Below, in pieces: positions 1 to 41,436 of a DNA stretch of 64,000 nucleotides. Numbering within the stretch: position 1 is the first letter of the stretch; each line of letters opens with the position of its first letter. Origin of the DNA: Tomocerus qinae (taxonomy: Eukaryota; Arthropoda; Collembola; Entomobryomorpha; Tomoceridae); the NCBI GenBank assembly GCA_020055645.1, contig CM034550.1, positions 17,993,001 through 18,057,000 of the forward strand. The letters run 5' to 3'. Under the pieces are notes generated by a model. That model worked only from the letters and a program-made list of their open reading frames with translations. It did no database searches and was not told the DNA's origin. The position numbers and the translations under genes were made by a program.

Positions 1-3000
1 ACATCTTTTCTCGTTCATGCAAGCTTTGTTAATTTTACACTCCGTATTGGAAGTGCATGGAACAAACTCCATAGGATTGGGATTTGGCATTCCTTTACAA
101 CAAATGTAACTATTGAGAGTCTCGTTGAAGTAAAATCTTCTGTCTGAAAAGTACCCTAAAATAGTAACAATATTTGTTAGATAGAAAACAATTTAGAAAT
201 AAAGTTTCGATGCATTCAATCTTGATTTTCTCTAATCCTACCATCAATTGTAACTTTCCACGAGTGAACTTGTCTCTCTTCAGCAGTAGTAACACATTGT
301 ATTTGTGTGAAATTGAGGAAATCTTTCAGATCAACTGTAAAGTTGGCAATGTAAGGATAATCTGAAGATGCATTCATGTAATGCAATACTTCTTTGGGCT
401 TTCCTTCTCCTGAAAATGTAAATGTAATGTTCTCAGTTGCTTCGCATCGAAATACTTCGGTATAATTCCATGAAAGTTCTTTTATTCGTCTTGAAGTCCA
501 TCCAGGTGAGTGACGAGCGACGTATTCTAAAAAGTTACACGACAAAATCAAGGTTTTACTCTTGAATTCAATCAGTATTCGACAATTTAATAGAGAAAAC
601 GAAAGAAAATTAAATACTTGGAAATGCTTTTCCATTTTGCACGGAAATAACAGTCGAAGTTCTTTGTGATTCATCCGCACAGTAGTAGTAACCTAAAAGA
701 TTTGCAAATGTTTCTCCTTTGAATATAAACCCTCTATGGGGATCAAAAGACATTGATGGCCTTTTTGGAGCTTCCACCCACGAATTCTAATCAAGAAAAC
801 AGATCATCATCCACAAGAAAACAAACAATAATGAAAATAACTTGGATTTATGATTTTACATTTGACGTTTCCACTGAATAGAGTTGAACAGGAGTGTGTG
901 GATCAGATACTGCGCATGGTCTTCAATAAATATTATTTAGATTAACTAACGTAATTAAATATGTATAATAACAAATATTTTTTTTACAAACTGTTCAATG
1001 TCACTTACATGGTCAGCAATCTAACTTTTTCCGTCATACTGTCTGCATAAAGATTTATCACCTTGTCCGACGAGGATAAAAATAGATTCTCACCTGCCAA
1101 GAAATTTCACATGCAGAAGCAACTCGACTAATAAATTATATTTTTGCTACAAAATACCGCTAATTATGGTATTTACCTGGAACATATACATCAAAATATG
1201 CATTTAGATCCCTGGGACTCTCCGTGCTGAAACAGATATATTTTCCAGTTGAATTCTCATCTACTTTTACGAATTCCAATTTAGCTGTGAAATTGTATGA
1301 GTAAGTAGCCTTTATCGACTCGGCTTCCCGACTGTAGTGAGACTTTATATACGGACTTCCTGGTCCCTCATACTGAAACAACAAAGATTTAAACAACCAA
1401 TTTCAAATAGCCCATTAACATATACAAAGGACCGTAGTATGTCATCTCAATCTGTCATTCTCCACTATACCTTCCATTTCACGTGCTGGAAAAAATGGAA
1501 AAAGTGTATTAGTATAACAAATTTTCAACTAATGATATTATTATGATTTATACAGATTTGGATCTCCAAATGAGTTTACATAGGGTGCTGAGCATTCCAA
1601 AACAATTTTGTTGATAGCGGGTTCGTAATAATTTCCAAGAGCTGTATCATTCAATACGACAGTGACATTATGTTCCTTACTGATAACTTTCAGAACCCCT
1701 TCTAGATTGGTCATAACAACCCGAGTGTGAAGTATTTCTGGGCGATCTAAAATTATGGAGATAAACATTTTCAAATGGTAAATGATTTTGACACTAGAAA
1801 TAGTGTATTAACTGATAGTATGTAAAAACAGTCAAGAAAATACCTTTAACTCGAACGCGCAGTGTAAAATTACGGAATTCGGATACTGAATTTCTTAAAG
1901 GAGCCATGCACATAATTCCGGTAGTGTTTTTATCAGCAAATGTGATATCACAGAAATCATAAAAACAATCCTCACCTAAATTACGTAAAACTTAAATTAG
2001 TACACAATATCTTAAATAATTAGACTAAGATTCTAGTTGTTGAGCCTTACTGGATAAATACTTCAAACTTCCATTCTTTTTCTGTATGGCCCATTTGTAG
2101 ACATAAAACGGAGGTGGATCAACAACTTCAGAAGTGAAGAAGGTCGGGCCTACTGAGAAAAATTTACTTGGTGCGTAGCAAATGAAACGGACAGTATCTC
2201 CTACGTAAATATCTCCTACCAATTTATTATGGGGTGCTACTTCTTGTCGAATGCCCATAACTTGGGCTCCATCGGGAACTGTATTTCCAAAGCTAAATGC
2301 TAAATGTTTAAAATGGGAGTTAGAATTTCAAATGTAAATTTTTGTAGGTTAAAGATGTTTAGCATTTTTTACTTGTGTATTTTGTTAATTGGTTGTGGAG
2401 AAAAGGCGTTTCTCTTCTGAAATCCGAGCCGGGTACACCCACTGTGCATTGGAGAACACCTTCGACGACGGGCGAGGGCCACTTTGTTATTGACTTTCTG
2501 TTGAAACAATGCCAAGTAGTAAGAAAAGTCATATTGTGAACAAAGGTTAATAAAAATGTTTTTAAAACCTTAGTTCTCCAAATCCTTCAATGTTAACAGG
2601 AATACTTGCACAACCTTGCGGTGCGAAATGCTTTGTTGAGTAAGCATTCTGGGAGACGACACTATAACCTTTCTTTATCCAACATTCAAGATCAGAGCCA
2701 CAGAAAACCATGTTGAACTTTGGTGAATGAAAGGAATCGGTACAACATAAAAACTGACGATTTCTTGAGTCGTAGGTTATTTTGATGGTATTGTTACCTA
2801 AATGGTGAGAAAATATACATAATAATCTTGCATAACAAACTGAGACTTATCTATCTCCCATCTGCCTCGTGTACACTTGACTCTTTCGTTGGGTCATAAA
2901 GATCAGCTAATAGATTAAAGCATAACATAAAACATGTATACCTAAACTCGAACTTCAAAATTTTTCTAAGACAATTCCAAACAATTAATTGAGTATAGTT

Positions 3001-5513
3001 ATATCTATTATTACTGCATTGTAAAATTAAATCGATGAATTCTATATTTATGCAACAGCTTTGAAGTATTGAAATATTTTTTATCAATATCAAAGAAAAG
3101 TGTGTATGATCAAAACAAACGTGGATAAGTTACTATCAAAAGCAATATCTGGCAAAGAGTGATCTTTCCTTCCATTTGGTTAAGGAATAATTTTAATTTA
3201 AGTCATCAATGTGAAGTTTTCCTTCTTTTTCTAATTCAGACATTGCAAGATATATTTAGGTACACAAAGAGTGAAAATAAAATCTCCAATTAAGACTTTT
3301 TTGGTGACGATTTTATCTGATGTGACTTGGTTTGTGTGATAAAGTTGTCTGAACTAAAAACAAGAGGCTAATTAAAAGATAATGTACTGACCATGCTTAG
3401 AAAATTCCCACGTGTGTAAAATTCGTTGCGTGTCACTGGAAATACATTTAACTGCAGTATAATTCTTTCGCAATTGAGACGGGATAATTTTGGCCACGGC
3501 TTTATATGGAAATTTTTCAGATGCGCTGAGATTAGTTTTATATTCCACATTCAGTTTCACATCTTTTACGTCCATACTTATCACAATTTTTTCTTTTGCT
3601 TTGCATTCAAACATCTCAAGTTTATCAGACTTCATTGGAACGTGGTTATTGTTAGGAACTACTCGAACATCATCATCTGTATCAAAAATCAATACCACGA
3701 TCAGATAAAATGTAAATGATGATTAAATATACATTAGTAGCTGAAAGGTTGTAATTGAAAGTCGTGAGGTTCACAATATATTTTCACGTTGCAATAAAAT
3801 GTTATCTTGGTGGGGTTATTCCCCTGAAAATGCGTAATAATTTTATGCCAAGAGCTGGATTAGAGTGATGATTATATAATTTACCTTTGTGAGGAATAAT
3901 TGTTATGGGTAGCGATGTCTTCGTAGTTTCTTCTTTGCACATGTAAGTACCCCAAGGGTTTTTAATTTTGCTTAAATTGAGAATAAACCCTATTTTTGGA
4001 TCGTAGTATGCGGATGAATCCAACACAATGTTTTCCAACTGTCCGTCTCTCCTTCTTTTCTTCAGGGTCACAGTTGCATCAGGATTTGACACAGTACAGG
4101 GTCTGTAAATTTCTCGTATGGATTACATGCAACATCAAAATAGGAAATTGAAATGCTGGACAATTTTCCAACATATGTCAATTATCATTGATAAAAACAA
4201 GCAAGAATTACGCTAAAGGTATGAAATATTTGTATAAATCTTACAAGCGAATACTTGCAGCATTTTTGTTAGCCCGAATGGTCTGGTGAGTATCCAGAAG
4301 AAAAGTCTTTAATGGTATATCTTTCTTGTTCCCTAATTTAGTGTTATCTATAATATGGAACACAAAATATTCATTTCAGACCAATATTCCAATAAAATAT
4401 TCTAATACTAAACGTAGGCATTTCTCCTTTGATTTGTCTCAAAATCAATCTTAGACTGAATGAACTATTAGCATACATGTTTAGTAGAAGGTTTCGATCA
4501 GCGTTTTCGCTTTACTTTAATGCAAGTGTACGTACTTGCATTGTAAAATGATTAATTTGTATTGTCAATTTCTTCACATTATTGATTATGGTTCATTCAT
4601 AGCTATAATAGAGTAGGTATTAACGGCTGATTTTCAAACCTTTCAACAGAAAGGATATTATTATTGCATATAATTTACAATGTAAATAAATAGATCACAA
4701 ATTGCAGTAAAAATTGTTGAATAATCATAATGTAATTTCTTTCAAGTGATATTACCTAAAATAAAATATATTGTCTGCCTATTTTAATGTGATATTTGAA
4801 TTTGTGGTCTTACGTGGAACAAATGTATAAAAGAAGGAAGACATTTCAGGATTTTCTATGCTTCTACACGTATAATTTCCTGTCATGATTTCAAACATGT
4901 TGATATCTCTAATCTGAGCAAAGTAAATTGACGTTGTGGTTTTGTTGTAATCTTCGGAGACACGAAGACTTCTGCTGAGCACTTTGTGTGCATTGAATGC
5001 CCGATCCGATGATGAGCCTCTTCCCATTTTCCACTTGAAAATAAAATCGATGAATAAAATTTACTACTTACAATATAAGATGCACCAATTCTTGTAACAT
5101 AAAATTGGAAAAGATGAAATTTCTTGAAAACATACACCATCTAATCCCCGATAAATCCATTCGACAGGATAAAATGCAGTGCAGTCAAAGTAGACGGAGG
5201 AAATCCATCCAGGTTTGTACTTAATTTTGTCAATTTCCCCCGTGTAACTAGAACTTCTTTTCCATCCGGGTGCATTTGGCTCAAAATAAGTGGGGCTAAG
5301 TATTGTTTCCGTGTTTGGCAAATCATAAATGGTTTTTGTAAACTCGCCATTTTTAGCAATGATTCTAATTTCCGGTGGAATTTTCAATGCGACAGATTCT
5401 AAAATTGCAGGAAGATGTGGTGAAAATTTTTCTTTAGCAGAAATACAAAAACGTGTCCATACAAATATTTCAAAGATAATAAAACACACTTCTATTCTAT
5501 AAAATCGAACCAT
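1..5513 (-). CDS. Gene A: secreted Ig-superfamily protein, two modules, 3' part outside window
   Basis: Exons in transcript order: 5513-5136, 5033-4814, 4347-4245, 4102-3885, 3676-3392, 2797-2569, 2497-2373, 2299-2051, 1975-1844 (module 1); 1746-1580, 1485-1471, 1372-1177, 1093-1009, 920-860, 786-618, 526-242, 143-<1 (module 2). Phases join to 1,020 codons in the window. The ATG is followed by a hydrophobic signal peptide (residues 1-25). Module 1 (to about residue 646) runs Ig1 (GNYTCRS), Ig2 (YDPKIGF then TYMC), Ig3 (FECKAKE), the cysteine domain (FLCC..C..EC) and a last Ig. Module 2 repeats this up to its cysteine domain, cut by the window edge. Many N-x-S/T sites fit a secreted protein. 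Ig1-Ig2 resemble PDGFR/VEGFR D1-D2; the kinship is my inference. Odd points: a 15-nt microexon, a split cysteine-domain exon and an extra phase-2 intron before the first Cys of Ig2 in both modules. Ligand and function are unknown. The end of the protein, including any membrane anchor, is not visible. Confidence 0.82.
1471..1485 (-). other. 15-nt microexon in gene A module 2
   Basis: Flanked by AG acceptor and GTATAG donor, this exon encodes HVKWK. It restores the C-x-x-x-x-V-x-W core of Ig1 between the exon ending in ECSAPY and the exon starting YEGPG. Without it the Trp found at this place in other modules would be missing. Both junctions are phase 0. Confidence 0.7.
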
Positions 5514-13879: not shown

Positions 13880-16590
13880 ATGTTGGGAAAAGAACTTCTA
13901 ATCCGTGTCTTTGTGCTAAGTGCTTTGTGTTCTTTGGTGCTCGGTAGTGCAATAGGAATAGCGACTGTTAATAAAACTGCGGCCAGCAATTCCTCAACTA
14001 ATCTGCCCATTGCGAGGATAATCTTACGACATAATACCCACGATGTACACTTAGTTAACGAAACAGTAATCAATGATGTTCCAAACACTATTACTACACT
14101 TAAGGAAGACTCCATTGCTAATAGCAGTCTGCTCTTGGAATGTGAAGCCAATTTTCCAATACTTTGGCAATATGATGGCGATGGTGTAAGACGCTTAAAT
14201 TCATTTCAACCCAAAACAAAATAACAATGATAATAGATTCAGGTTGTTGTGTATTCTAATACTGTTTTATATTTATAGTATCCAGACTCTCTTTCTTTTG
14301 CGGAAACCAGAAGGAATTTCACTAAGTTTGAAGATACTTCGACATACCGGTTTTATGCAAGTGTTCACTTAGTCCGGGTTAAAGAAGCCAACACTGGAAA
14401 GTATACCTGCATGAAAATTGGGGAAAATAGCCCGAGTGTGTTTTACTACCTATTTATTACAGGTTGGTAATGATAATTAAGTAATTTACTGGCATATAAA
14501 CAAAAAACTTTAGAGACACTTTTGATTTTACACATTACAGGGGATGAAGTTTTCCTTGATTTTATCAAACCAAACGTAAGAGCCAAGGAAAATGAATCTA
14601 AAGTAATTTTGCCATGTCGGGTTACTGATCCGAATATAAATGTCTACTTGGGAAAATATGATGAAAATAAGGTGAGATACTATTACCCACAAATGAAAAA
14701 TGAAATTTGAATGCTTTACATCATACAATACAAGTTTATTTTATTCACAGGCTGCGTTGAAGCAGTTTTACCCGGATAATTCATCTTTGGTTTACGATTC
14801 TAGCATTGGATTCACTATGGATATCAGAAAATATCAAAATCCTTGGGGTCTTTACATTTGCAATCCTAATCGAGCAGGAAAAGCATTCAGAACACTATTG
14901 CTTCCTCCGAAAAGTAATAATTCTTGTGTTTTCTTTCGCTAAACATGCGTATGGAGGATGTAAACAATAATATAGAACCGGAAAATGTAACTACTGTGTA
15001 ATAAGAGTATAATCAGCAATTTTTATGATACGCTGATTACATAGTTAAAGACCAACACAGTTAGCTTTATCATGCCTCCAGCCTTTAACTCATAAGCTCT
15101 GAGAATATTTATTTGCTAATTTCAAACAGCTAAGGAAGTTCTGGCTACACCATCTCAAAGGATTGTTCTTAAAGACTACAAAACGGAAACTTTTAAGTGT
15201 GAAGCGAGAGAAAAGTTCTACATGACGATCTCAGGAAACTTCATTCCTACTATTAATTACGAAAAGAATGAAAATTCCGAATTCCCTTTTGTTGCTTCCA
15301 TTGAGATCACCAAACCAGAAAACTTTTCTAATCATACCATTATAACTTGTACTGCAGTTCTGGGAAAACGAGAATTGCATCGATGGGACTACACAACTTA
15401 TCGTGAGATACGCAAATTATTAGCAACTGAAATATTGCCCATATATCTACTAAATGTATAAATATATTAAATTAATCTTTCTTCGTTAATTTTTCAGACG
15501 AAAGGAAAATGAAATTCTCTTATGACGAAAAATTGAGATCTTTTCTTTGTTGTATTGACTCGGCCGAGTTGCCAGAAATGTACTTGGTCCCCATGTGCTC
15601 TTCTGTCATGGAATGTCAAATTCAAAAGCATTGTACCAAAACTAAAAAATATCCATGCATTGAGAAAGCTAACGAAACAATCAGTGATGTACCTTCTGGC
15701 TGTACGGCATTTCCAGTTCACGCAGATACTGGACACCACAACGGAATGTTTGTTTGCTCTGTAGGGGCATTCGAAGACGAAGACAGAATACAAAATGAAT
15801 TTTACTTTTCATTCATTAAAGATAAACCAGGTTAGTAGAAAACCATTCCCATTCAATTTTTAAAGAAATTCAATCTAATTATTTGTACTTATTATCCACT
15901 CGTTTAATATCGGGACTGATTATGAATTTCGCGCAAATTTTTGAGGGTTATTGTTACCAGTTGCTTGCGTTACTATACTTCACTTCACAACAGTAGGCAC
16001 TTAACATTAGGCGGAGTTATTATGACGTCAAAGTATTTATAATTTCCGTTTATACAATACACATCTTTTTTGTATTTAGTGATGAATTTTGAAGATGAAA
16101 GAATTCAAACCGAAGACATTCTTAGAATTACAAAAGTTCACAATGGTTCTATATATGTTAATGAAGAAGTAGAAGTGTCTTGCACACCAAATCGTTTCTT
16201 TTTCTCCAAAGATTATCTCTGGGGCTTCCGAAGAAAGAATAACACGGTGCAAATTGTTCCGAAAGGTAATAATATAATTATGTTTTCCCAAATCTTATAT
16301 TACTACAATGAACTTTATGATGATGCACAAGAAATAATGAAATCATCTCCCATTTCATTAATACTGAACAAATAGACCGTGGACTAACCTTTTATTTTCT
16401 TTTTCATTTACCAGATTTATTGAAAGAAACATTGGTGACGAATGTTGGCCTTCTCCCACCAACCAAAGTTCATACAATAGTTTTTCCAGATAAAGATATT
16501 ACTGAACTGATTTGTTTTGCACCAATTTGGAATTCTGCCACAAAATGGAAGAACACAACAATTCCTGTGACGATTTTAGATGACAAATAA
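13880..16590 (+). CDS. Gene B: secreted Ig-superfamily protein, one module
   Basis: Eight exons: 13880-14185, 14279-14462, 14541-14671, 14751-14913, 15130-15402, 15498-15830, 16080-16265, 16415-16590; 583 residues, in frame throughout. This is the simplest full copy of the module. A signal peptide (residues 1-23) is followed by Ig1 (30-163, CEANFPILWQY to GKYTC), Ig2 (164-261, PCRV, YDSSIGF, LYIC), Ig3 (262-352, FKCEAREK to ITCTA), the cysteine domain (353-463, FLCC-x14-C-x4-EC, more Cys, FVCSV) and a last Ig (464-583, VSCTPN to ICFAP). Nearly all introns are phase 1 or 0 at domain borders. There is no transmembrane segment or kinase, so this isoform should be secreted. Ig2 carries the [FY]-[DE]-x3-GF..Y-x-C pattern of PDGFR/VEGFR D2. 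The stop codon overlaps an AATAAA at 16586. An alternative last exon lies downstream (16850-17085). Confidence 0.87.
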
Positions 16591-18235: not shown

Positions 18236-18357
18236 TTGAGACTTTTCGTTCGATTCAAAATCAAATCATTCTGAACATTCATTCACAAAGCAAAACAAAT
18301 CAAAGCGAGAATTTCACTGCTCCGTTCTCAGTAGAGACAATCTTTTACCACGTCAAA

Positions 18358-20894: not shown

Positions 20895-21910
20895 TTAGGA
20901 TACTTCTGAAAAATATGGCAGATAGTTTGTTTTCCACGCAAATAATGATTTGTTACACTGTTTTCGGTAATCTGTACACTTAAATCTTTTCCCTCGCTCC
21001 TCCGCCTTGATAAAATCGTTTTGGCACTCTCCTTCACTGTTCTTCATGCTAAAAATCAAATTTAGATTTGAAAAATTTTTAATAAATGATAGGTCAAGAT
21101 TTTAAATGAAATAGAACCTGAAAAGTAGCTTCGTTAGCTCCCCGAACAATCCATAAGATTCTATTGAATCAAATTCCTGGAATTCACAAATGGCTCTTAA
21201 AAGGCATTGGCCACCATCAATGCCCGCTACAGATAGAATACCTTCAATCTTTTTCAGTATTTTAATTTTCTGTAGCTGTCCGAGGGTACAGCGAGATTTC
21301 AAGTCGCTCATCAGAGTGTTATTCCCAATGTGCCTCTTTGCTCGCAGACGTTCCGTACTGCTACTGTGCCGAGGTTGAACCGGATAGATGGACTGTCTTT
21401 TCTTGAAATCTCCATTGGTTAACATATCAAGATTCACTAAAAGCATTTTTATTTAAAATTTCTCGTTTAACTTCCTGATTTACTTATCATAAATTATTGA
21501 TTCGCAGAATTCGATTTAAAAAATTTTATGCTCATTGGATTAAATAGAGCAAATTGGATTTGAATGTGGCTGGATGCAGGAAATGAACTCAATTAAGGAT
21601 ATTCCGCATCGAAGGAGTTATCAAAATATTAAATTACAGAAAACTTACACTTAAGAGGTAATTCCAACATCATGTTGGAAGAAAGGCTACCGCCCGGAGT
21701 TTTCCACAAAGGTAAATTTACACTCGAGGATAATGTAATCACAATACCTTTGGGTAAACTGAAATGTCTTTGATGCTCGATCCAAAATAGTTTATCTGAA
21801 AATTGCTTACTAGAGTACCCACCGCCTCGTGCCGCTTGAAGCAGATGTGAAAGAAGAACGAAGATTTTCACCGAGAAAAGAGAACTCAAGATATTTAAAA
21901 GTGTGTACAT
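20895..21910 (-). CDS. DM4/DM12 family secreted protein
   Basis: Exons 21910-21649, 21436-21118 and 21048-20895 join (phases 1 and 2) to 244 residues. A signal peptide is clear at residues 1-26 (FVLLSHLLQAARGGG). The family pattern follows: an N-terminal beta-rich stretch ending in LPKGIVITLSSSVNLPLW, then GGQCLLRAICEFQEF, FGELTKLLF and the C-terminal EGECQNDFIKAE ... CTDYRKQCNKSLF. The Cys-x-x-Arg-x-x-Cys-Glu core and the final C-x3-Y-x3-C-x-x-S-L-F arrangement are the marks of the arthropod DM4/DM12 group. Members are secreted and mostly of unknown function. The stop is set by the spliced frame, not by the longest unspliced frame. Confidence 0.8.
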
Positions 21911-23815: not shown

Positions 23816-26800
23816 ATGGAAAAAACAAGTACAAATGTAACTGCGGTAAGTTCTTCCACTTGTTGACAATTAATTTTAGTAAATAGTTTTGAGCAGTTTT
23901 TGTGTAATATATAGTTAGAAACTATAAATAATACTTTTTTACCGTGTTTTATAGGGACAATTTGGTGACCGCAAACGTAGAGTATCTACATCCCAGTCAA
24001 CCATGGATATACCACTAGAACAGGCAAAAGACTTGAAAAACGTATATGGCAAAGGGGCGAAAATGCTATTAAAAATGGGTTTGCAAGCAGAGCATTTGAA
24101 TAATGCACCTGTAGAAGTAGAAACAGCTAACATGGATCGAAAAGGGCTCGGTAATATTATTTAAACAATAAAATGAAAGTATATAAATATAACTGCATAT
24201 TTGGCTCTTCGGCTGTATTATATCAGATGATCATTTCTGTGTATTCCGTGTAGGATTTTTTTCCAGAGACACCCCCAACCCATTTAAAAGATCTCAACCT
24301 GGATCTTCACAGGCCCAACAACGACCGTCTGTCAGTAAAAAAACTCTGAAAAGGTCAGTTAAGTAGATGTATTATTTATATCTGTATAAATAATTTCTAA
24401 TTACAATACAAGTAATACTATTTTGCTCTTGTGAAAGTGAATTAATTTCGATTTAACCATTTCAGCAACACTAGTCGTGTCTTCCGTACCCCACATATCC
24501 GTAAAGTTAAGAATAAGGGAGAACCTGAAGTGCCTTTGCAAGCCGCGGGTGAAGGAGTATCCAGTTCAAATGAATTAATTGAAGCATTTGGGAATCTGGC
24601 CATTGGAAGTATTTTTGAAGAAAATGAGCAGACAGAGAATTATGAAAACATTAAAGACAATATCCGATTGATCACTGACCATTGTGAAGAGGTGTGTTAA
24701 ATAGTTTATATAAGGCCAATGTTTACGGACGTATTGAGGGCTTTACAGGCGGAACCCCCTCCCCCAAAATGAAATTTAAAAAATTAATTTAAAAAATTAC
24801 GCACATCTCACGGTTATAAACTAATTTTCGTCAAATACCCGAATGTCTTTGCGCTTTGCGTAAATATTAAAAATTTCTGTTTCAATTCTCCCTTTTGGTT
24901 CGGACCGCCATAAGCGTGCATGATTCTTCCAATTCTTCCAAGTTGACCCAAATGCTTGTCAACAGAATTAGAAAAATATTTCATTTTTGCAGGAAATACG
25001 TAAAAATTCCGAAAAAATTCACGCCTCATCGGAAGAACTTGTCATTCTCAAGAAAATGGAGACTGATTTACACCAACGAATTACTAACCAACAAAGATTT
25101 ATCGCAGACCTGGAAAAACTAAAAGCTGTTATTAGCTCAGGATCTCAAGACACAAAAGAGGATAATGAGCAGCGTCTTGACGATTATTTCTTAGTTTTTA
25201 AAGCTATAAAGGTAAACTGAAGTGAAAATATTAATTTTTTACTTGATAAATGAGTCTATATGAATATATTACATACAATGTTATTGTATCTATCTAGGAG
25301 AACGAGTTTGTTTGGGAAACATTAAAATTTTACAGGTATATAGCTCCGCTAATAGTGCCTTTGATAAAAAACGAGATTGGTCCAAATTGGAATCCTTTAA
25401 AGCATCCTATTAAACCTGCCCAATTGTACGTACATTGGAATCATTTGTTATTGGATCAACCAGAGGAATTCGAAATCGTCTTAAGGGAAACGTATATGAC
25501 ACCCTTGAAAAGAAGTATTAGGTATAGCAAAGCTTAATAACACAAACCATAGCTACATTTTAAATGCTTCAATTTTAATTAGTTAAAAAAACATTAAACC
25601 TTTTCTGAACTTAGAAACTGGGACGGAAAAAACCCGCAGCAGATAATACAAATAATAAAAATTTGGTCACCAGTTTTCCCTTCCTCCATGGTAAATGAAA
25701 TCCGGGATGATGTCTGGCCAAAATTCAACGCTTTGGTATCTAGTTGGAATCCATCTGATCAATCTGACTCTTCTATCGTCTCGCCCAGTTGGGTTCGTGA
25801 ATGGAAAAAATTATTTGGTAATGACATCATAAATTTCATGGACGTTTGAATTTGTAAAAATTATAATTTATATCGGTATTTATATACACGTTTTACTTTG
25901 AAAATGTTAGTTAACTTAAGTTTGTGTTTTTAAATTAGATTCGAAATTTCATGTGGCGATTCAGAAGATTTGCGATAAAATCGAAATGACACTTGGGAAA
26001 TGGCATCCCAGTGAAAATTGGGCAACGGAGACACTTTATGAGTGGGAACACATGTTCAATGACAGCCAAAGGAAGCAAATCCTGCAAATAGTTACCATCA
26101 TCTTGGAAAAAAATTTGAATAAAATGAAATTCAATACTGCAAATAGTGAAACAGAAGCTGTTGATGCTACATTAGTATGGATTGACTTTATGTCTCACAG
26201 AAAATTGGCCAAGATTTTTGAGAAATCGTTTTATCCTAATTGGCTTCGGTTTATTGATAAATGGTTGAAATCTAATACCGACTATAGCGAACTTTCCCAT
26301 TGGTATTTGTTTTGGAGAAAAAGAATTCCAGATGAAATGTGGACGTGTGTAGAGGTTCAAGGTAGATGCTCTTCGATTATATATTATGCCACTTCATTCA
26401 ACCTTCAAACCCATTTTGGGTGACACGATATTTGAAATTAAAATATTTTCTTTTGTTTGTAGACAATTTTTCAAAAGCTTTGGACCTAATAAACTCCGCT
26501 TTGGAAGCACAAGAAGTGGTTGACAGTGCAGCTGCTTTGTCTTTGCTGGACGATGCCTCTCCATCCTCATCCCAACCTAGTACAGTGCCTAGTTTACCAA
26601 AATCTAAAAGGGCAACCACTAAAGTAGATGAATGTTTGGTCGACGCAAATAAATTTTTGGATCCCAGTCCCGCAATCTTTAGAGATTTATTGCAGAAAAA
26701 ATGTGCAGAAAACGGAATAATTTTCTTTCCTCTGGGAACTAAACACAATGGAAAACAGATTTACAGATGCAAGAAAGAATCTATTTATTTGGATGGTGGA

Positions 26801-26863: not shown

Positions 26864-27182
26864 AGTACAATAATCGCAACGACGGGAACTGAATTAATTT
26901 AAGACTGACTACTTGAGATAAAGATTTACGAGATATTGCAAAATCGATGAATTTATTTTTGTAATATTTAATTTTTGATGACAATAGTTTGTAGCTGTAG
27001 TTATTAGATAAAGGTACATTATTATATACATGTTATTATGATTCAAATGATTTACGAATTACTGCCCACGGCAATTTAGGAAATGGACTATATAAATGAA
27101 TTTTTACGCAACGAGATATTTAATGAATTATGTTTTGAAACTTATTAATAAATAAAAATGTACGAAAAACAAGAAAAAAGTT
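26864..27182. other. Tail-to-tail gap, TFIP11-like and gene C
   Basis: This is the 3' UTR of the TFIP11-like gene. A plus-strand AATAAA pair at about 27147-27155 places its polyadenylation site almost on the stop codon of convergent gene C, so the two 3' ends probably overlap. Confidence 0.5.
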
Positions 27183-30100
27183 TTATAAGAATAGAAGAGG
27201 AGGTTCATTTGTCGTTGTGGCATCATAATCAATATCTTGGGCATACGTTACATTCCAAGTAGTTCCTGACCATTTTTGATAGCATGTAATATTTCTATGA
27301 AAACATTGAACCGCGGATATTTCTTCGGTGTCAAATCTAACTAGAGTCCAACCATGCTGCGCTTCCTCTTCGTCACTCTTGTAGTCATCTAACAATAAAA
27401 CTTGAGAATTAGCATCAGGTGACGATAGGTATTTTATGGGATTTATATTTATTATTACCATATCCATCTAAATAGATCACAGAGCCATTTTTAGCTAAAA
27501 GAGACCATTGTAGCCCCTTTTCTTCACATTTAGGTGCATAACAATCAAAGACAACTGATGATCCCACAACAACATTTTCATTTGGAGTTATTGTAATCTT
27601 GAAACTATTTATCGTTTTATTCGTTAAAAATCGCTGAGACGGCAGTGCGTCATCCCCCAATTGAATTATTTCAGATTTTCCTATAAAAATACATTTTAAT
27701 TTTTAGTCAAATTCCCATGATGCAATATTTATGTAGTTTTTAAGCATTAGAACCTTGATTCTCTGAGTAATTCCTGTTGTGGGAATAAATGAAGTCTTTG
27801 AAAATATGTTCTTGATAAACTCCTGCCACAGAGCATCTAAGTAAACCTTCGTACTTTTCTAGTATGCTAAAACCAATACAATCTTCTTTCAGATCTTCAT
27901 GGGCACGCCTAGGATCTGATTCTGACCCACAAGTGTTTTGGGCTAGGCAACTCTTCCTTACATTACATTCTGATACCTCGGCGCAAGGAACATGTCTCAA
28001 TACTGCAGGTTCGTGAGAATTCGTACAACAAATATACCGAACTCTGTCTTGGTCGTAGTAATATGTCAGAGGTGGCTTGTCTAAAGATAAATTGTTCAAT
28101 TAAAATCATTCTAAAGTGCAATTCGTAATAATTCATGAATGAAAATTGAGAGTTACAATAATTTCCGGGAGTGTATGACCAAGTGTGCAGAACTGTCTGA
28201 TCTTCAATTGTGGTACAGTTAATTAGAGTAAATCTATTGTCATAATCCGTATCGTCTTCTAGCAATAGTGGGAAATAAGACACAATGTACGGGAATTCGG
28301 AATCAAAATCCGTTTCATGCATAATCTGTCTTCGTTTCATAGGTCCAGAGAATGTCAATGTAACATTTCTTTTTGCTTCACATCTGACTGCTGGTTTAAG
28401 TCTCGGAATATTATCAGCGTAGACACTATTTGGAATTATCTTGAATTGAGGTTCGGCTAAATATTTAAATAAAAATTTCTTGAAGACCAATCTAGAGAAA
28501 TCCAAACCAATTTGATTTTTTCAATTTTACCCATTGGTGATATCATTCGGATCCTTCCTGATGTATGTCCACTATCTGTTTTACAGATGTATGTTGTGTT
28601 CCAGGGTAGGTCATAATGTAAAGTTTTTATTTCAAATCCTTTCAACGGATCATAATCTATATATTCATCAGGAGTGACGACCATCCATTGATTCTGAATA
28701 GAAAGTTAATCTTAGTCTTCCTTGTAATAAACCACAATTTTTTAAGACCTAATATTATTACCCGAACTTCTGCACTCTCAGCTAGCAATGTTACAACATG
28801 GGCACTATCGGAGACAGGGCAAGGAATTGTAACGATATTATTTCTAAGTGCCAAGTCCACATTTGTAACAGAAATCACTTTTGGATCCAAACTTAGGAAG
28901 GCAATTATACCTGAAACCATTCATATCAATTGTAATACCTTATCGGTAATCATTTATAAAAGTTATTATCAAACCTGGGACGAAAACTCGGAAGTAAGAG
29001 TGCAGACGCGGTTTATCTTTTACAACACAGGAGTATTTCCCACTAATGCTGTCTGTTACTTTGCTAAATTCAATTGCAGAGTAAAACTTGTATGTGGTAG
29101 ATTCATTTCCAATCAATTCTGTTACATTACTTAATCCTTTTACCACTGGAGTCTTTAAAAACAAGTTGCTCAAATTAACTTTGAAATAATAGATATCTTC
29201 TGCGTTTTACAATTGTTAGGGTTGTTTAATTTACCCCCATTCCTTTGTACTCCCAAACAATTTGGAAGGGAGATTCGCATTCGAGCCGAAGTCTTCTATT
29301 TCGAAACATGGCAGTTTCCCTAAGAATTATATCAGTGTTGGCTATATCCATTAAAGGAAAGGATACACCACCTCGCTTATCGGCCAGAACAGCTCTGATT
29401 GTTATTGGTGCTTTATCTATAAAACCCAAAAACGCATTTTGATTACGTAAATTGTATTTTTTCTGGTGAAGAAAAGCAATCTAGCAGTAGTTAATTCTGA
29501 ATTTCAATGTTTACCTGTCACTTTAACTGGGAGAGAAATATTTCTCCATTCCGAAGAAGAATTGTATAAAGGAGCAAAGCAGAACACTTTGGTTATGGTC
29601 AAATCATCAAACTTTATTCCTGAGTTCGGTCCACACGATTTCAATCTGCAGTGTGGAGCTAAAAAATAATTTGAGAAAAGAATAAGATTTTATGATTTTT
29701 TTCGTGATAAATAAGTCAACAAACCTTCAATGATTTCAATGCTTCCATTTTCTCTCCAAAGGCCGAACTTGACGTAAAAAGATCCAGTGGCAAAATATTT
29801 TGGAGAAGACTCACAGTAAAATGAAAAGATTTCACCTAAAAGTATATCCCTAGGTTTGTCATTGACGATAGGGATATCGTGCTGAATTCTCATGATTTCG
29901 TCCGGAGTAGGAATTTCCTCGGGATCCACGGCTGAAATACAAATGATGCAGAAAAACCGGAAAATTGTGAACTAAATGATTGTAATAACTTACATATAAA
30001 TCCATGAAAATTGATTAAATCGACTTGTTTGCTCCGGAAATCTAAAGAACAGTCTAATTTTCCTTCGGAAATCACCCACATTAAGCTAACACAACCAAAA

Positions 30101-32081
30101 GGTATAGGGCTTGGTGTTTCTGTCATAGGTGGGTCTTTTTCAACAACTTCAAACATGAAATTCTTTTTCAGTTTGCATTCCATCTCTGAATGACATTGGA
30201 GAGCTTTAAATTTTGGTAGCCTGTATGAATCCGCACAACAAATAACTCGGTGGCTGGGCACATCGTATCGAATTTGGATTTCGTTTTCTGTAGAGAACAA
30301 TCATAAATTATTCTCCAAAGGAAAGTAAACAACAAGAAAAAGGGTAATTTAATTAGTGCTCAATTACTGAAATAGCTGTACTCCCACATGGTAAGTACTT
30401 GCTTGCTGCTTCTTGTTGTGCAATTAATTCTTATGTATTTCCGGACATCCGAGGGATTCAAAGTTACGGATACTGCAAACGGAAATTTGCCATGCGGAGC
30501 AAACTTATACTCGACCAATTCCATTGGGAAATCTTGTTCTGAGAAAACCAAAGTTACGTTTTCTCTTGCTTTACATTCAAACTTTTGGTTCTCTCCTGGA
30601 ACAATTGGCACATAAGGATCTTCTGGCGAAAACTTGCCAACAAATTCTGAAAACCATGAAATAGCATTCAAGAAATAATTGAACCAGGTACCAAAAAGGA
30701 AAAAAATTAATTGAAGGATTTACCTTTAGGGGGAAACACGAAAATTTGAACCGATCTGAAGTTTTCGGCTCTGCATAAATACGTTCCTAATAGGTAAGTG
30801 TAATTGAGATTGCTAAACATGAAGCCTTTCTTGGGATCAAATTCAAGTTCTGGTGGATCTATAAATACTCTTTCGAAACTCCCCTACAGAAAACAAAATG
30901 TACAGTTAAAACATTTTATGTCTTTGCATAATACTGTTTATTAATTGGAGGAAAGAAGTCAAATATCCTTTTGTTCAATTCAAACAGGTATATTAAACAA
31001 TACATGTTTTCCCTAATTTTGTATGAGAAATTGATGAGTAAAGCTATTTTTTACCCTTTCAGATATTTTGAATAAGGTAACTTTAGATTTCGGATTGGAC
31101 ACACTACAGGGTAAAATCATAGACTCCGAATTTTCTGGGAGGATTATCGTTTGCTCCTTGTCGTGTAGTAGAATGCGTTGATTTTCTTCGGGACTAGCAA
31201 AAGATTTTGAGTTTTCTGCATGCAAAAAATAGATAGACAAAGGAATTACTTCTTCGTGTTCAAAAAATTCTTTCTAATGTTATTACAAATGGTTGTTGAC
31301 GTTGTTGTAAAAGGTTTGAGAAAAAGGGATTTTGCATACCAGGAAAATAAACATACATCCAAGTTAACACAGAATTGTCCTCAATGCTCCTGCATGAATA
31401 ATTTCCTGTTAACTTTTCCCTAACAAAAATATTAGAAATCTGCGCCTTGAAAAGGTATGTTGACTCATTCCAGAACAATTCCGGTTTTACAATTCTTGTC
31501 GCCATTACCGATGCATGCTTGAAATTGTATGGATAATCTTTCTGATCTTCATTATCCGTCAGCTAAAAAGTAAATCAGGATAACGGATGCGATGATTTTA
31601 TTTAAAAAAATTGTTATAAACATTTCTAAAAGTAAAATTATTAGGATTTTTGAAGAACAACTTACACCATCGCCTTCATAATGCCATTCCACAGCTGTTC
31701 AAAATAAAATTCAGAAATCAAATTTTATTAGGAATTATAATATCTTCAGGTTACAAATACCAGTATAAACTTATGAGAATATTTTAAGTTATTCAGTTTA
31801 CCATAAGGAGCTGTGCAATCCATTTGAATTGTTGCTGACGTTTTTGCATCTTCATTCGGTTTTCCAATCCACTGGTTTGTTTGTTCATTGAAATACAAAG
31901 GTTTTATAATTGTTTCTGAATTGTTTCCCTGTTGTAGTAACTTGTAAGAAACTTTTCCAGTAGAAGTGAGTTGACTTTTTGCATAGAATTCTATGTATGG
32001 ATCTTGAGAAAATTCTTTCGCTAGAGAAAAGCTGGAGAAAATGAGAAGTATGCAGAAATGCTTAGCTCCATGAAATTCCAT
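27183..32081 (-). CDS. Gene C: secreted Ig-superfamily protein, two modules
   Basis: Exons: 32081-31802, 31694-31666, 31562-31340, 31215-31055, 30883-30724, 30646-30368, 30287-29994, 29931-29725, 29658-29515 (module 1, residues 1-592); 29416-29235, 29152-28975, 28910-28762, 28693-28531, 28456-28157, 28080-27754, 27680-27459, 27388-27183 (module 2, 593-1167). A signal peptide is clear (CILLIFSSFSLA). Each module has Ig1 (GNYSCRS; GKYSCVV), Ig2 (FDPKKGF..TYLC; YDPLKGF..TYIC), Ig3 (FECKARENVTLVFSE; RCEAKRNVTLTFSG), the cysteine domain (ICCADS..C-x4-EC; ICCTNS..C-x4-EC) and a last Ig. No transmembrane segment or kinase follows; the protein ends in a short acidic and Thr-rich tail. It has many N-glycosylation sites. 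A 29-nt exon splits Ig1 of module 1 only. By likeness to PDGFR/VEGFR ectodomains it may bind a cystine-knot-type ligand, but that is speculation. Confidence 0.86.
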
Positions 32082-33132: not shown

Positions 33133-36100
33133 CTATTTACTTGAGTCTAGGAAATGTAGAGGTAGTGAAATATTTCTCCAACTGTAGTAGTCATTCCACG
33201 AAGGTGCTATACAATAAATGGATTTCCAATCTGTATCATTAAACTGAATCTCGGTGTGTCCATAAATTCGCTCTCGGCTTGGCAAATCTGTAAAACATTG
33301 TTTCACTTTAATATAGAATTTTGCATTGGATAACTTTGAAAACACTCTTAATTACCTTTCCCTGGAATATATTCAACACTTCCATTTGATCTCTCCAAAG
33401 CCCATTTCATTTCGGATGACAGAAAAAACTTTGACCCAACGCAACTAAATTTCACTTTTTCTCCAAGAGTAATATTTGCAACAGGATCTTGATACATTTG
33501 CATAATTTTATCGTTGGAGGTTGAGTATTTGTCAAAAACTTTTTGTACATTGAAGATACTGTCGTGTACTACAGAAAATACAAAAATAAATTAACTTTAC
33601 ATGCATGCTTATATTTATAATTTTTGCAGAATCTGTTTTTGTACTTTGGTATTTCTTTTCTGGGTTGTAGTAGTAAACGACAGCTTGAGAAACAATTTTC
33701 AGAATGCCCTTTACTGAGCATCGGAGGAATCCTTCGGTTTTTTTCGTGATGTTAAAGCCAATGCAACCAGCTTGTTTAAAGGTGTAGTCTAAAGATACTC
33801 CAGTATCAGTTTGAATGTTGTCTTCTGGGCAAATGTTCTTATAAAGGCATGCACTTTGACGATTTACACATTCGGAAACAGAAGAGCAAGGCATCCACTC
33901 GAAATAAGCTTCACGATATGGTTTAGTACAGCAAGTCATTATATTCGTTGAATTTTCAAAGTAGAAATAGTCAATAAGATTGGAATCGGAGGGATAGTAC
34001 TCCCATGTGTGATGGGTCACTTTAGGCTCTTTCACACTGGTGCAGTTGATTACAGTGAAATTCAGAAATTCTAGAGGTTCTGTTTTGTAGCTAACAATAT
34101 ACGGGTACAAGGAATTGAAGTCAGTTTCATATACAAGTTTTCCTCTCAGAGTTGTATCTTCGGAAAACGTTAAAGTTACATTTTCCTTCCCTTCACATTT
34201 GAATATTTGGGACTCATTTTTTGAAATTTTGATCTCCTTCACTAAAGGTGTGGGTTTGATGACTATGTCTGTAAAAAACTCCTGTTATTTGTAATTCTTA
34301 AGCACTAATATTCTTTTAGCAACAACTACTACAAAACTTACGATCCACAGAGATTTGACACATCTACAATAAAATTATGCTACAATGACTAGTCCTAACT
34401 ACTAAATACCTTTCGGAAGTATTATATTGTACACTCCAGAGTGAAATTGTTGCCTTTCATCGGAACATCTATAAAGTCCATGCAGATTTGGTAGCAGAGT
34501 TTTGTTAAGAGAAAATCCATGGGCTGCATCAAACTGTGCGTCGTAATCCAAAACTTCCCATTTCTCCTAAATTCAACACAAAGTCGACAAAAATAGTTAA
34601 ATAGTTTAGAATATTTTTATATTCAATTTTATACAGATATTTTTCAGTGCGCAACTCCACTTTAAGATTATATTATGGATATGATGGAAATTGTAACTTT
34701 ATCCAGCTAAATAAACACCTATAAGTAAATACTACAAAAAGTACAAAGCTTACGGTATTGTTATCAAATTTCTGCAAAGTTATTTTAACTCGACTGTCCG
34801 ATGTTGCGCAAGGAATCAAAACAGAGTCCCGATATGAGTACAATCTTAAAGTTTGATTTCCCTCTGCCAAAAATAATCTTTTCCCTGGAGAGCGCAAAAA
34901 AAGATCATTTGTAATTAAAATCTGAATGAACTGCAAATTTGCAATAAAAATCCAAATAAATTGTGATGATCTTAATTTTCACCAATGGTTTTTTACCCGG
35001 AATGAATAAATAAAACGATGAGTTCAAATCTTCCACACTGTTGCTGCCTTTGTGCCCAAATTCTCGTTGTACACTGACGCAAGAATATTTTCCTACAGCC
35101 TTTTCATCCAGTGTAACTAATGTCAATACAGCTGAGTATCTGTACGTAGATATATTCCGAATGCTATCGGTTAGCCTGTATGTCTGGACATCAATATCCG
35201 GTGCCTGTGCAAAATTTTGCAAGAAAAATAATATTATTAAGAATTTTCTGCTCTATTTCAGACGAATATTTTTGAACGCAATATAGACAAGACATACTCC
35301 ATTTCCTTCATAAACCCAATCCAAAGGATAAGATCCGTTGCATTCCAAAGAAACGAAAAATATCTTGGAATTTTTGAAAAAAGCTCGCGATCTCCATAAA
35401 GACATTCCAGAAGTTTGATAGAAGAATGCAAATAATTCCGATTTGTCCAGAACCGTAGGAGTATTCGGTTTGTCATTTAAAATTTTAACAAGTTTCCCAG
35501 AACCTTCTTTCAATAGCACCCTCACTTGTGGTGGTTCTGTGCACAAACCCAAAAGTCTTAAAAATGTATTTCTTTGCATGGAAAAAATCGTTCATTAAAA
35601 AGTAGTTCACCTTTTACATACATGGGTCCAGAAAGATTTCTCCATTCAGTTGGGGAAACTCTTACAGGTGCGTAGCACTGGATAGATCTGACATCCGTGT
35701 CCTCAAATGTCATTTCCAGCTGACTGAAGGATGTGTTGTAATTTTCATCATCTAAATGGAGTAACAACTTATTAAGCTTGCCTTCATTTTCATTTGAAAG
35801 CAAAAGAACCAGCATAATATTATATCTACATGCAAGATTAGATTGGAAGAGAAAATGATTTGGAGTTTACAAGGATTGCTAATATAGACAACAGATCCAT
35901 TTTTCATTTCCATGGCCCATTGAATTCCATTTGAGAAAAAGAATTCGGAGTAGTAGCAAAGAAACCGCGACTTTTGGCCAACTATAATGTTCTTTGAAGG
36001 AGTTTTGCTTAATTTCATGATGGCTTCACTAAATTTGACTTTCGAAGTATCTAAACTTGAATCGGTGTAGGCTGCAAGTGAAAACATTAGCAATTATTGA

Positions 36101-38122
36101 GAGACTAAAAGCTACCAAAACATTCTCCATTTGTGTTTGCAATCAGCATCAAACACTTTAGTTACAAGATAAAATGTATAAGATTCATAAAGATAAGATG
36201 TTTGTGCGTACCTTGAAATATTCTGTAGGGATTGAAATAATATAGATAATCTTTTACGTAAGAATTTGTAATGCCAATGACAGAGCACCTGAGAATTCCA
36301 CCGGAAAGTGTGTACTTGAAGTAGGGACTGTAACCAACGCATGTATTATTTATTTCATATATTCTATCAGAATACTCGCTAAGGATGTCTTCCCTTTCTG
36401 GGCTTTCTCCATTAAGAATCAGCTTCTTCATGTGACACTCTGTTTCAGATCGACAGAAAATGTATTCAAGTTTGGGTTTGTAAAATGAATTGCTACAGCA
36501 TACATATCTAGCATCTTGAAATCTTGTTTTCCCATCAAAGTAAAATTTTGATATAGACACATCATCATAGGTAGAATATTCCCAAGTGTGTAAAACGGTA
36601 TTATCTTTATTAGTAACACAATTGATTATCGTATGCTCCGTCATCTCAGTCGGATTTAACTCATAAGTTGTTTCAAAAAGATAATTCGACGAAGCATCCC
36701 TTTCTGTGTTTATGATTCTTGGCTGTCTATCACCTGAGAATGTCAGCGTGACATTTTCATTAGATTCGCACTTAAATGTTTGTTTCTGACCACGAACAAT
36801 TTTGACAAAACTTGTATCAGGTGTAGCTTGCACGTATGTATCTGAAAAACCAATAAAGATTTGAAGTTATTACCGCTTTTCCATGTTTAGTTTTCCGTTT
36901 TCTTACTTTTCGGTGGAAGAACAGTAAAATATCCAGAAGTTGTGTCGATTGAGTCTTTACAGACATAAATTCCTCGATAATTAGGATGATCTGCTACATT
37001 AATGTAAAAGCCATGCAAAGGCTCGAATTTCACGGCTGTGTCAACAGGAAAATAAACAGCACGGCCCTTTATAAGTAAAATTAGATGTGAGATACTTTTA
37101 GGCATTTCATATAATATTTTGTCTAGGATAATTTTTCTACATAAGAAATTACCCGACGATGGGATGGAGGATTTCCTAATTTATACAACGTTACAGGAAC
37201 GCGAGGATCGGCCACAGGACACGGAATAATTATGTGTGTATCATTCTCACTGAGTTGTATTGTTTTATTTGCGGTGGACAAAAATAATTGATCATCTAAA
37301 GATAGAATACAATATAATGTTGAATACGTTCATGGCTAGAACAAGAGGTGATCTACCAATCTTATAAAAAGAATATTTAGGAGAGTGTAGGAAAAACTAA
37401 CTTGGGGTGAAAACATCAAAAAATGCAGATAGCATTGGTGAAGTAATGCTTTTGCAAGAATATCTTCCTGCATTCCTCGCATCATTCTTGAAGATATCAA
37501 GAGTAGAAGAAAATGAATAAGTGCGGGGATCACTGAAATTTCCAACTTGTCTGACGGATCTTGAGGTGATGTGAAAAGGAGCCTTTGACAAATAAAATGA
37601 ACTGATATCAAGAAAACGGTTGAGAAAAGCAATATTTTCACCATTGTGTATTTAGATTACCCCAGAGCCTTCTTCATATTGCCACTCGACTGGATAATTG
37701 GCAGCACAATGTAACCGCAATACCTTTCGGATGATAAAATCTTCTCCAGAAGACAACTGATAATGTTCTTTAGGCAAAACAAGAGTGACATTGACTTGGT
37801 TGGCCACTTGTCTTATATTGAACTTGACAGTATTGTTAACAACATAACTAGCCCTGATTTTAGGATGCTGTAGGGTTCGACTACTTTTGCGTCTAAGACC
37901 ACTATTTTTGAACGAGTACAATTGAAGATTAGATGCCGATGTAGACTTATCACTGCTGTCGCTGTTGATAGTGATACTATTGACAGGTGACAGGAGGGAG
38001 AAAATGAAAAGAGTACTGATGAGAATGAGTAGAAGTAGAGATGATCTCGACGTCGGATAATTGAGAAAAATCTTTCGGAATGGACTCGAATAAATAGCAA
38101 ATGTGGGGTGTAACGAAAACAT
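33133..38122 (-). CDS. Gene D: secreted Ig-superfamily protein, two modules, long N-terminal region
   Basis: Exons: 38122-37661, 37582-37402, 37295-37153, 37066-36907, 36841-36212, 36071-35871, 35751-35611 (module 1, residues 1-639); 35536-35298, 35204-34997, 34884-34754, 34566-34410, 34268-33645, 33568-33356, 33287-33133 (module 2, 640-1214). The N-terminus is basic, then hydrophobic at about 28-46 (LLLLILISTLFIFSLL): a signal peptide or signal anchor. Domain order in each module is as in gene B: Ig1 (GRYSCKS; GKYSCVS), Ig2 (FEPLHGF..IYVC; FDAAHGF..LYRC), Ig3 (FKCESNENVTLTFSG; FKCEGKENVTLTFSE), the cysteine domain (VCCSNS; TCCTKP, each C-x4-EC) and a last Ig. In both modules Ig3 and the cysteine domain share one long exon (630 and 624 nt), whereas genes A, B and C have an intron there. 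No kinase or C-terminal membrane segment is present. Confidence 0.86.
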
Positions 38123-38999: not shown

Positions 39000-41436
39000 T
39001 CATCTTTCTCGATCGTCTGTGCAAAAACCTGGTCTTGGTCCTTTGGTCCGCACGTTTAGTGTTTCTGAAGGCGGACTGTCCACTTTGCTGTAAAAAGGAA
39101 TTTTCAATTTCAAAGATTTTGATTTATTTGATTTAAAACCATCAAGGTAAATGGAAAACTGACCTATCGTAAGAAACCGCGTAGATCATGTATCTGAACC
39201 CACAATTTAATCCTTCAATCTCAAACAGAGTCTCTGAGAATTTTGTAGGCTTTACATTCACGAACGACCATTCCCCATAATCTTCTTTGTAGTACAGTTT
39301 GAATCCCAGGATAGACAGGTAATTTGCATTGGTATCTCCGTTTGGGAGCTTTAAATGAATCACAACGGAAGTGTCTGATGTTTTCACGACAGAAATGGCT
39401 GGAGGCGGTGGTGGTATTGACTCTTCTCTCACCTTGCGTAATAAATAATAAATGTGGATCAGAGTGTGACTGAATCTCCGTGTGAGTATGTACACAAACA
39501 TTTAACAACACCAATAAAATTAACAAGCGATAAATGTTTTCATTCAGCCCAGCACATGAATGTAATTCAATATATCAGATGGAGGCATTTTATCTTTAAC
39601 AGGTACACACGATCTGTTCAATGATACTGCAATTATTTTACGGTTAGAGTGCATTGTGGAGTGTTAGAGTGGGGAACTCTTGTGGGAATTATTTTCTTGT
39701 GCATTCATGAGGTTAGCTATTCATTCATGCAAGAGATAACATGGAAGATCAAGATTCAAGTTGCATGCAAACAGAGATAAGGATATCCTAGGCTAATAAT
39801 AATTATAGAGAAGCTAATTGAAGCTATACCTCGGTGAACTCGTAATTCGTTCTTTTAGGTGTGAATTGTGTCACTTCTGTTGATAAAGGACCCGCACCCA
39901 CGTTGTTGAATGCTTGAACTACCACTGCGTATTCATTTCTTGTGCTATTCAAACAATTTAGTTTTCTTTTTAGATCGTGTGCCAAATATTTGTCGTAATT
40001 CCACAAATAATCTTAAATACAACACGAATGTTGCAAAAACCACAATACCTACTACAGGAATAACCTTTGAAACTATCATTCCTATGCTACTTTATATTGC
40101 ATGTACTTATTTCGGAATATAAAGCAATAAAATGAGTTATGCAATTCACGATTGCAAAGATAGTGGCTGTGGATAATAAATTCCTTACTCGGGAACACTG
40201 ATGTTTAGTCCATAGAACCTCCCTACAGTTTTTGGGAACACGACTATTTGAAATGTATACGGATCATCTTCAGCACTAGGATGTTTTCTATAACCAACAT
40301 TGAAACCAAGGAGCGCTCCATTCCAACCATCTTTCGGCGGAGGTGTCCAGCAAACTTGTAATGTCTCCGTATCAATTACAGAGGCCTGAAAAAAATTTCA
40401 TATATTTACAAAAGTATCTCGTAGAATTTTATTTCCAAATTACAATTTTACCTCAACATTCATTGGTGTTCCATCGGGCAAATCTTCTAAAGTGATTACT
40501 GTCTGTGATGTTGTCGGAGTTGAGTTACCTATTTCGTTTTCAGCGAAAATTCTACAAATATTATCAATATAATTCATTAGATCACCTACTCCAAATATCC
40601 TGTAGGTCATTTTGAAATATATTATTCATAAAATACCAGTCATGTTTAGAGTAAATGTTTGTCGGAATACCTGAAATGGAAAGAAGTCCAAGGTTTCAAA
40701 TTGTCAACAATGGCACTGGTACTGCTTCCAGAAACAATCATTCTTTCTTTGCCAGTGACCCATGACCCTTTGGCTTTCTTATACTCTATGACATATTGCT
40801 TGATTCCAGGTGAATTAATTACTGGTAAACTCCAGTTAAAATGTACTGTTCTTGATGTAATTTCCAGAACTTTAAATCCAATGGGGACGAACGGTAGATC
40901 TAAAATCAAGATAGGTGAAAATAATAAAACCTCCTCATTTACAACAGATAATGTGGTGTAATATGCCAAAAGTAAATACATATATACGTTTTCACTTAAA
41001 AGACATACTAGTGTCGGCTACCGCGAATTGCAGTGGGAGAGATGTGTTTCTGATTCTGGAATTATTTCCTAGTACACAGTAAACACTCTTGATGTTGGTT
41101 TCTTTGAAAACTACTTCTAAAGCTCCGTCACCTAATTCACACGTGGTAGTAACAATCACTGATTAAAGCAATTGCGCAAATGATAAATAAAATGAGCGTA
41201 ATGAATATTTATAATTTACCCGTTCCCTGCACGGATTCGAACTTGTCATCAGTTTTCTCTAAAACCCACTGAGCTTGATTTAGCGGTAAAAGAGGATTGG
41301 ATCCATAACAATCAAATTGTATTGTCGTTCCTAGTGTAATAATTCCTTCTGGATTTTGTATAATATGTAATAGATGTGTATCTTCTAGTGCCAATAATTT
41401 CAAATAGAAAATTATGGTTTCTATTATGTTAAACAT
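39000..41436 (-). CDS. Gene E: one Ig domain plus three FN3 domains, secreted, Dscam-like
   Basis: Exons: 41436-41220, 41131-41009, 40899-40671, 40551-40452, 40385-40189, 39965-39830, 39432-39164, 39087-39000; 452 residues. The N-terminal segment (MFNIIETIIFYLKLLALED) could be a weak signal peptide. Exons 1-2 encode an Ig-like domain (GTTIQFDCYG to VYCVLGN ... NTSLPLQFAV) that matches the last Ig domain of the neighbouring modules in sequence and in its phase-1 introns. Three FN3 domains follow: about 113-205 (VHFNWSLP, FAENEIGNSTP), 210-325 (LQVCWTPPP, QAFNNVGAGPLS) and 330-440 (IHLKLPNGDTN, VDSPPSETLNVRT). FN3s of this style occur in Dscam and related adhesion molecules. The protein ends shortly after the third FN3 without a membrane segment, so it should be secreted. 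The acceptor at 39965 was chosen because it alone keeps frame with the GTAAGG donor at 40188. Confidence 0.78.

Follow-up and report, generated by a model that had tools for sequence, protein, structure and literature searches.

We find that a 64,000-nucleotide stretch of the collembolan Tomocerus qinae (assembly GCA_020055645.1, contig CM034550.1, here C5:17993001-18057000), referred to below as the window, carries a cluster of genes whose sequences support their assignment as kinase-less paralogues of the arthropod PVR (PDGF/VEGF receptor) family. One module of five immunoglobulin (Ig) domains, Ig1 to Ig5, occurs seven times in four predicted genes, A to D, and a fifth predicted gene, E, appears to combine the last domain of the module with FN3 domains. 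The assignment is carried by the ranking of the modules against known structures, by the absence of kinase motifs and membrane helices from the cluster as searched, and by intron positions and phases held in common with a receptor kinase of the same genome.

Seven copies of one module

All 1,104 stop-to-stop open reading frames (ORFs) of the window, each at least 30 amino acids long, were compared with one another, and a single set of exons recurs on both strands between position 1 and 41.5 kb. Gene models A to E were obtained with a splice-aware script trained on these repeats; some junctions were hand-picked from scored lists, and the models are predictions made without transcripts. They give two modules each in A, C and D and one in B. 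Ig1, Ig2 and Ig5 are each encoded by two exons and Ig3 and Ig4 by one apiece, except that in D1 and D2 Ig3 and Ig4 share a single exon. The predicted genes are as follows.

1..5513, minus strand: gene A, two five-Ig modules (A1, ~5513-1844; A2, from ~1746 leftward), leaving the window at its left edge
5136-5513, 4814-5033, 3885-4102, 3392-3676, 2051-2299, 1844-1975, minus strand: main exons of gene A
1177-1359, 618-786, 242-526, minus strand: main exons of gene A, continued, with three more across or left of the edge
13880..16590, plus strand: gene B, a single module in 8 exons encoding 583 amino acids, ending in ILDDK and a stop directly after Ig5
27183..32081 (start approximate), minus strand: gene C, two modules (C1, ~32081-29515; C2, ~29416-27183), ending in EPPLLFL and a stop ~20 residues past Ig5
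33133..38122, minus strand: gene D, with modules D1 (38122-35611) and D2 (35536-33133) spliced together across a phase-1 intron, 14 exons, 1213 amino acids, no internal stops, ending in LDSSK and a stop
39000..41436, minus strand: gene E, Ig exons 41220-41436 and 41009-41158, then three FN3 domains

Genes A to D all reach their stop codons within about 20 residues of Ig5; the terminus of gene A, IEYY and a stop, lies ~0.69 kb to the left of the window. Gene B has intron phases 0101111 and no internal stops. The first exon of gene C is model-dependent, starting at 32081 or at 32597, and the C2 Ig4-Ig5 junction is uncertain, as are the gene A exons for A1 Ig2a, A1 Ig4, A2 Ig1a and A2 Ig2a. Module A2 is imperfect: the expected exon for the first half of its Ig2 (window ~780-1190, minus strand) contains in-frame stops, just short substitute exons could be modelled there, and the exon has possibly decayed. 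In 30 kb of left flank and 20 kb of right flank beyond the window (loci L001-L005), a six-module tblastn search at E 1e-3 found nothing except the end of gene A.

The seven modules are homologous. All 21 pairs align, at 58.9-254 bits, with A2 included up to the beginning of its Ig4, against a best score of 25.0 bits in a shuffled-module control in which 29 of 980 comparisons gave any match. Pairwise identity between modules is 22-33%. An alignment of six modules, excluding A2 with its irregular Ig2, keeps the cysteines, in Ig1 the W and G-x-Y-x-C, and in Ig2 P-C...G-F...Y-x-C. A first-pass annotation, made from the letters of this DNA, had described seven copies of one module on both strands within 41 kb, with G-F...Y-x-C in Ig2 and G-x-Y-x-C in Ig1; the gene models and pair scores bear out the former, and the patterns are invariant in the six aligned modules. 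In a tree, D1, D2, C2 and A2 cluster at 96/98 and A1 joins C1 at 95/91, a topology that fits duplication of a two-module gene into A and C followed by divergence. The best tree does not unite the seven window modules in one clade, and a single clade is not rejected (p-AU 0.151).

Kinship to VEGFR and PDGFR ectodomains

Kinship to the receptors had previously been proposed from motifs, with a profile search named as one check, and profile searches now place it on firmer ground; the grouping with unrelated Ig families that would have spoken against it was not observed. When a six-module profile was searched against the PDB, the top 16 of 49 matches, at E 4.5e-20 to 1.3e-7, were VEGFR1/2/3, PDGFR alpha/beta and CSF1R; no other Ig family ranked as high. 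The alignments with these receptors span D1-D2 and, for some, extend into part of D3. Basigin came next, at E 0.003, and JAM-type adhesion families followed at E 0.03 or worse. Protein B alone gave 16 matches at E<=1, every one of them VEGFR1, KIT or VEGFR2, and PF21339, the Pfam VEGFR-1-like Ig family, matches five of six modules at E<=0.1. A profile of Ig3-Ig4 alone had no PDB match up to E 5. Of two controls from the same genome, an L1/neuroglian-like gene ranked neurofascin and Robo first and a Dscam-like exon ranked Dscam first. The former also reached VEGFR2, at row 31 with E 6.5e-24, in VEGFR2 residues 284-405, outside the region matched by the modules; E-values alone therefore cannot name the family, and it is the ranking that does so. 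These rankings support the presence of a VEGFR-type D1-D2 Ig pair in the modules.

Kinase, membrane helix and N-terminus

Four tyrosine-kinase regular expressions found no motif in the window or in the flanking loci, and a family scan of 125 of the 1,104 window ORFs revealed no kinase among the families listed (25 of 27). Hydropathy detects no membrane helix in any of the five gene models: the strongest hydrophobic 19-mer past residue 60 scores 0.95 in A (full model), 1.06 in B, 1.72 in C, 1.17 in D and 1.15 in E, and the membrane helix of an own-genome receptor, L012, scores 3.28 on the same measure. The earlier statements that the window holds no kinase and that no completed gene ends in a membrane segment thus stand, A to D ending soon after Ig5. 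By hydropathy, B (2.33) and D (2.58) have a clear hydrophobic stretch at the N-terminus and A (1.75) a middling one.

Kinase-bearing relatives in the same genome

Searches of the genome (334 Mb, 115 contigs) with modules B and D1 find further copies on C1, C2, C4, C5 and C86, with D1 adding one weak match on C3. Two of these loci, L012 on C4 and L013 on C5 (the latter ~0.5 Mb away from the cluster), encode a further Ig domain and then a tyrosine kinase downstream of Ig5 (PF07714 at 7.2e-67 and 9.9e-77, respectively). The L012 model includes its membrane helix, and in L013 a hydrophobic ORF lies at the right place, outside the model. VEGFR1 and PDGFR alpha are among the best PDB chains for the L013 kinase, the first of the 60 matches listed being EGFR. 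This kinase carries an HGDLAARN loop, which is reported for decapod PVRs (PMC11024359).

The genome's own receptor kinases, to which the first-pass annotation had pointed, appear to be relatives of the modules. Against a profile of L013, L020 and L012, all with a further Ig domain and two with kinases, the modules give an hhalign probability of 99.9 (E 3.8e-31). In an intron comparison of eight rows that included L013, the introns in mid-Ig1 and mid-Ig2 are in phase 0 and the Ig2/Ig3 intron in phase 1 in all eight; the Ig1/Ig2 intron is in phase 1 in seven of eight, as two column groups 11 apart, and the Ig4/Ig5 and mid-Ig5 introns are in phase 1 in seven of seven. The agreement in positions and phases argues for common descent of the modules with L013.

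Kinase-less copies elsewhere and gene E

The remaining copies take several forms. L006 is a secreted-looking single module. L014 and L008 are single-module copies too, the former in a partial model and the latter extended by a long polar tail; two-module genes are seen at L017 and L018, both incomplete at the end of the examined stretch. L009 and L015 go on from five Ig domains to a further Ig1-Ig2 pair, a membrane helix (scoring 2.89 and 2.61, respectively) and a tail that is short; L015 matches PF21339 at 7.8e-8, and L019 is of their kind, incomplete at the end of the examined stretch. L020 (C1:88192001-88199000, minus strand) consists of an Ig module, Ig6 and a membrane helix (2.48), and matches PF21339 at 2.2e-6; within the 7 kb examined, no tyrosine-kinase motif occurs in the ~2.5 kb that separate it from the kinase-like gene next to it, and L020 is possibly an intermediate of kinase loss. 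Models of L007, L010 and L011 are incomplete or merged. In L007 (C1:110394001-110404000, minus strand), the model runs from PVR-like Ig1-Ig2 into cysteine-rich repeats of EGF-like appearance, and the locus may be two merged genes. Near base 38 of L014 (plus strand), a motif alone marks what appears to be the end of a further tyrosine kinase, encoded on the other strand.

In the tree, the L013 side (L020, L009, L010, L015 and L019) splits from the secreted-looking copies at 90/79. Since copies lie on several chromosomes, the expansion is not merely local: the tandem copies in the cluster uphold the local expansion first proposed, yet not as its sole site.

Gene E has its start codon at 41436, the right-hand end of the interval given in the first-pass annotation. 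In the ORF self-comparison both exons of its single Ig domain match Ig5 of the module, and its FN3 domains find Dscam (7y8s) as best PDB match at 2e-29, ahead of RPTP-F and contactins. Alone among the window genes it is thus like Dscam, in its FN3 domains; unlike Dscam, its model holds one PVR-like Ig and no N-terminal Dscam Ig array. As modelled, gene E looks like a domain-shuffled chimera of module Ig5 and Dscam-like FN3. On C2, L025 (C2:45449900-45452700) contains an array of near-repeat Dscam-like Ig exons.

Possible ligands are encoded as well. A genome search with PF00341 returned three exons, all on C3, of which only the first passes the cut-off; its translation (C3:29.40 Mb) shows the PVF cystine-knot motif, so that the genome has at least one PVF-like exon. 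The two others are suggestive PVF-like candidates that may be chance matches.

A family of soluble binding proteins?

What might such genes do? On balance, and with modest confidence, we favour the explanation that they are kinase-less PVR paralogues whose most likely role is to bind PVF-type ligands in soluble form or to serve as decoys for them, some perhaps having diverged to other targets. An ancestral PVR-type Ig1-Ig5 ectodomain would have become detached from the next Ig domain, the membrane helix and the tyrosine kinase, the kinase having been lost, we infer, rather than gained. The detached ectodomain would then have been copied in tandem, both inside a gene, giving two-module proteins, and by duplication of entire genes. 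For the products, of 5 or ~10 Ig domains, secretion and N-glycosylation are predicted. Their VEGFR-D1-D2/D3-like N-terminal region may bind PVF-type cystine-knot ligands or relatives of these, and bound ligands would be buffered, sequestered or distributed away from the kinase-bearing receptor, in the manner of soluble VEGFR-1. The co-occurrence in one genome of secreted-looking ectodomains, PVR-like kinases and a PVF-like ligand exon agrees with such trapping. Two-module proteins could offer two binding sites for one dimeric ligand.

Several observations weigh against this explanation. The intron between Ig3 and Ig4 disagrees, being in phase 0 in L013 and in phase 1 in the window genes, and absent from D1 and D2; L013 as modelled is without Ig3, and the start of its Ig2b exon was set by hand. 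BLAST scores to L013 are uneven, at 72 bits for B, 60 for A1, 55.5 for C1, 45 for D1 and 43 for D2, with A2 (29) and C2 (25) near the shuffled maximum of 25; scores to L012 stand well above that maximum just for B (57) and slightly for A1 (33). Neither L012 nor L013 matches PF21339 at E<=0.01, and L006 matches no Pfam family at 0.05. The gene models at other loci were built with the window modules as guide, without transcripts. At the N-terminus, C (1.29) and E (1.37) have just a weak hydrophobic stretch, the ligand exons are few for so many receptor-like genes, and an identity of 22-33% between modules allows for changed ligands. With the split in the tree at only 90/79, the tree does not settle the direction of change.

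Other explanations share part of the evidence. It is conceivable, though in our judgement unlikely, that PVR-derived genes took on a new role in humoral immunity, as recognition or opsonin-like proteins which, like soluble Dscam, bind foreign or self surfaces and no longer PVFs. The strong divergence of the modules, their spread over several chromosomes, the union in gene E of the module's last Ig with FN3 domains closest to Dscam, and a variety of architectures suggesting repeated shuffling would all suit such a role; the repeats of the window, however, are whole modules with every Ig domain present once, not alternative-exon arrays of one Ig, and divergence is by itself no proof of new ligands. 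The ~10 Ig domains of the two-module proteins, the anchored copies modelled without a kinase (L009, L015 and L020) and the FN3 domains of gene E might instead point to PVR-derived adhesion or matrix proteins, secreted multi-Ig bridges between cells or matrix with the anchored copies as their partners. This we regard as improbable, given that the PDB relatives were found through the ligand-binding D1-D2 region of VEGFR, with JAM-type families far behind.

That some or all copies are decaying, functionless relics of receptor genes seems very unlikely to us, notwithstanding the stops in the expected frame of the first half of A2 Ig2 and a gene A that needs improvised A2 exons to be open throughout. 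B and D, with 8 and 14 exons, are free of stops, and cysteines and intron phases are kept despite the low identity between modules, which suggests long retention under constraint. We give least credence of all to unrelated Ig proteins whose likeness to VEGFR derives from the shared fold alone. Ig domains do have a common fold, a control Ig gene reaches VEGFR2 too, and Ig3-Ig4 alone finds no structure; yet receptors of the VEGFR/PDGFR/KIT type rank before all other Ig families, and the intron phases are shared with a receptor kinase, L013.

Neighbouring genes

The window contains the following further genes.

21105-21452, minus strand: DM4/12 gene
25920-26420, plus strand: GCFC gene
51575-53108 and 54788-56462, plus strand: two tandem DNase II genes, with matching exon stretches 36-60% identical
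58659-60042, minus strand: NPL4 gene
62762-63784, plus strand: GGA-type VHS/GAT gene

Relation to known systems and significance

In vertebrates, soluble VEGFR-1 (sFLT1) is a secreted, kinase-less ectodomain that acts as a decoy by sequestration and arises as a splice form of the receptor gene. The window genes likewise encode an ectodomain without a kinase, for which secretion and decoy action would be the counterpart; unlike sFLT1, they stand as genes of their own, many in number, and some carry the module twice. PDGFRL, a single vertebrate gene, encodes a stand-alone, kinase-less, secreted receptor-like protein of few Ig domains, and the window genes resemble it by description only, as stand-alone kinase-less receptor-like Ig genes. 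To our knowledge, decoy control of VEGF is known solely from vertebrate splice forms or single genes.

With arthropod PVRs (Drosophila Pvr, decapod PVR1 and PVR2) the modules have in common the VEGFR D1-D2-type Ig1-Ig2 and, through L013, a match between profiles and the majority of intron positions and phases; unlike these receptors, the window genes have no following Ig6, membrane helix or kinase, and comprise 5 or ~10 Ig domains. Seven Ig domains are reported for Drosophila Pvr, with functions in haemocyte survival and migration (PMC6982143), and two to five for decapod PVRs (PMC11024359). A literature search, with subscription papers mostly outside its reach, found no description of such a kinase-less PVR family.

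We tentatively suggest, with somewhat less than even confidence, that the secreted one- and two-module forms, the short-tailed anchored forms and the PVR-Ig/Dscam-FN3 chimera together make up a large multi-chromosome family of gene-encoded traps or co-receptors that tune PVF signalling or humoral immunity. If so, a growth-factor receptor family would have been repeatedly turned into soluble or signalling-poor proteins in an arthropod, and a single genome would present the series from full kinases (L012, L013) through L020 and the anchored forms with doubled Ig domains (L009, L015) to secreted-looking proteins (A-D, L006).

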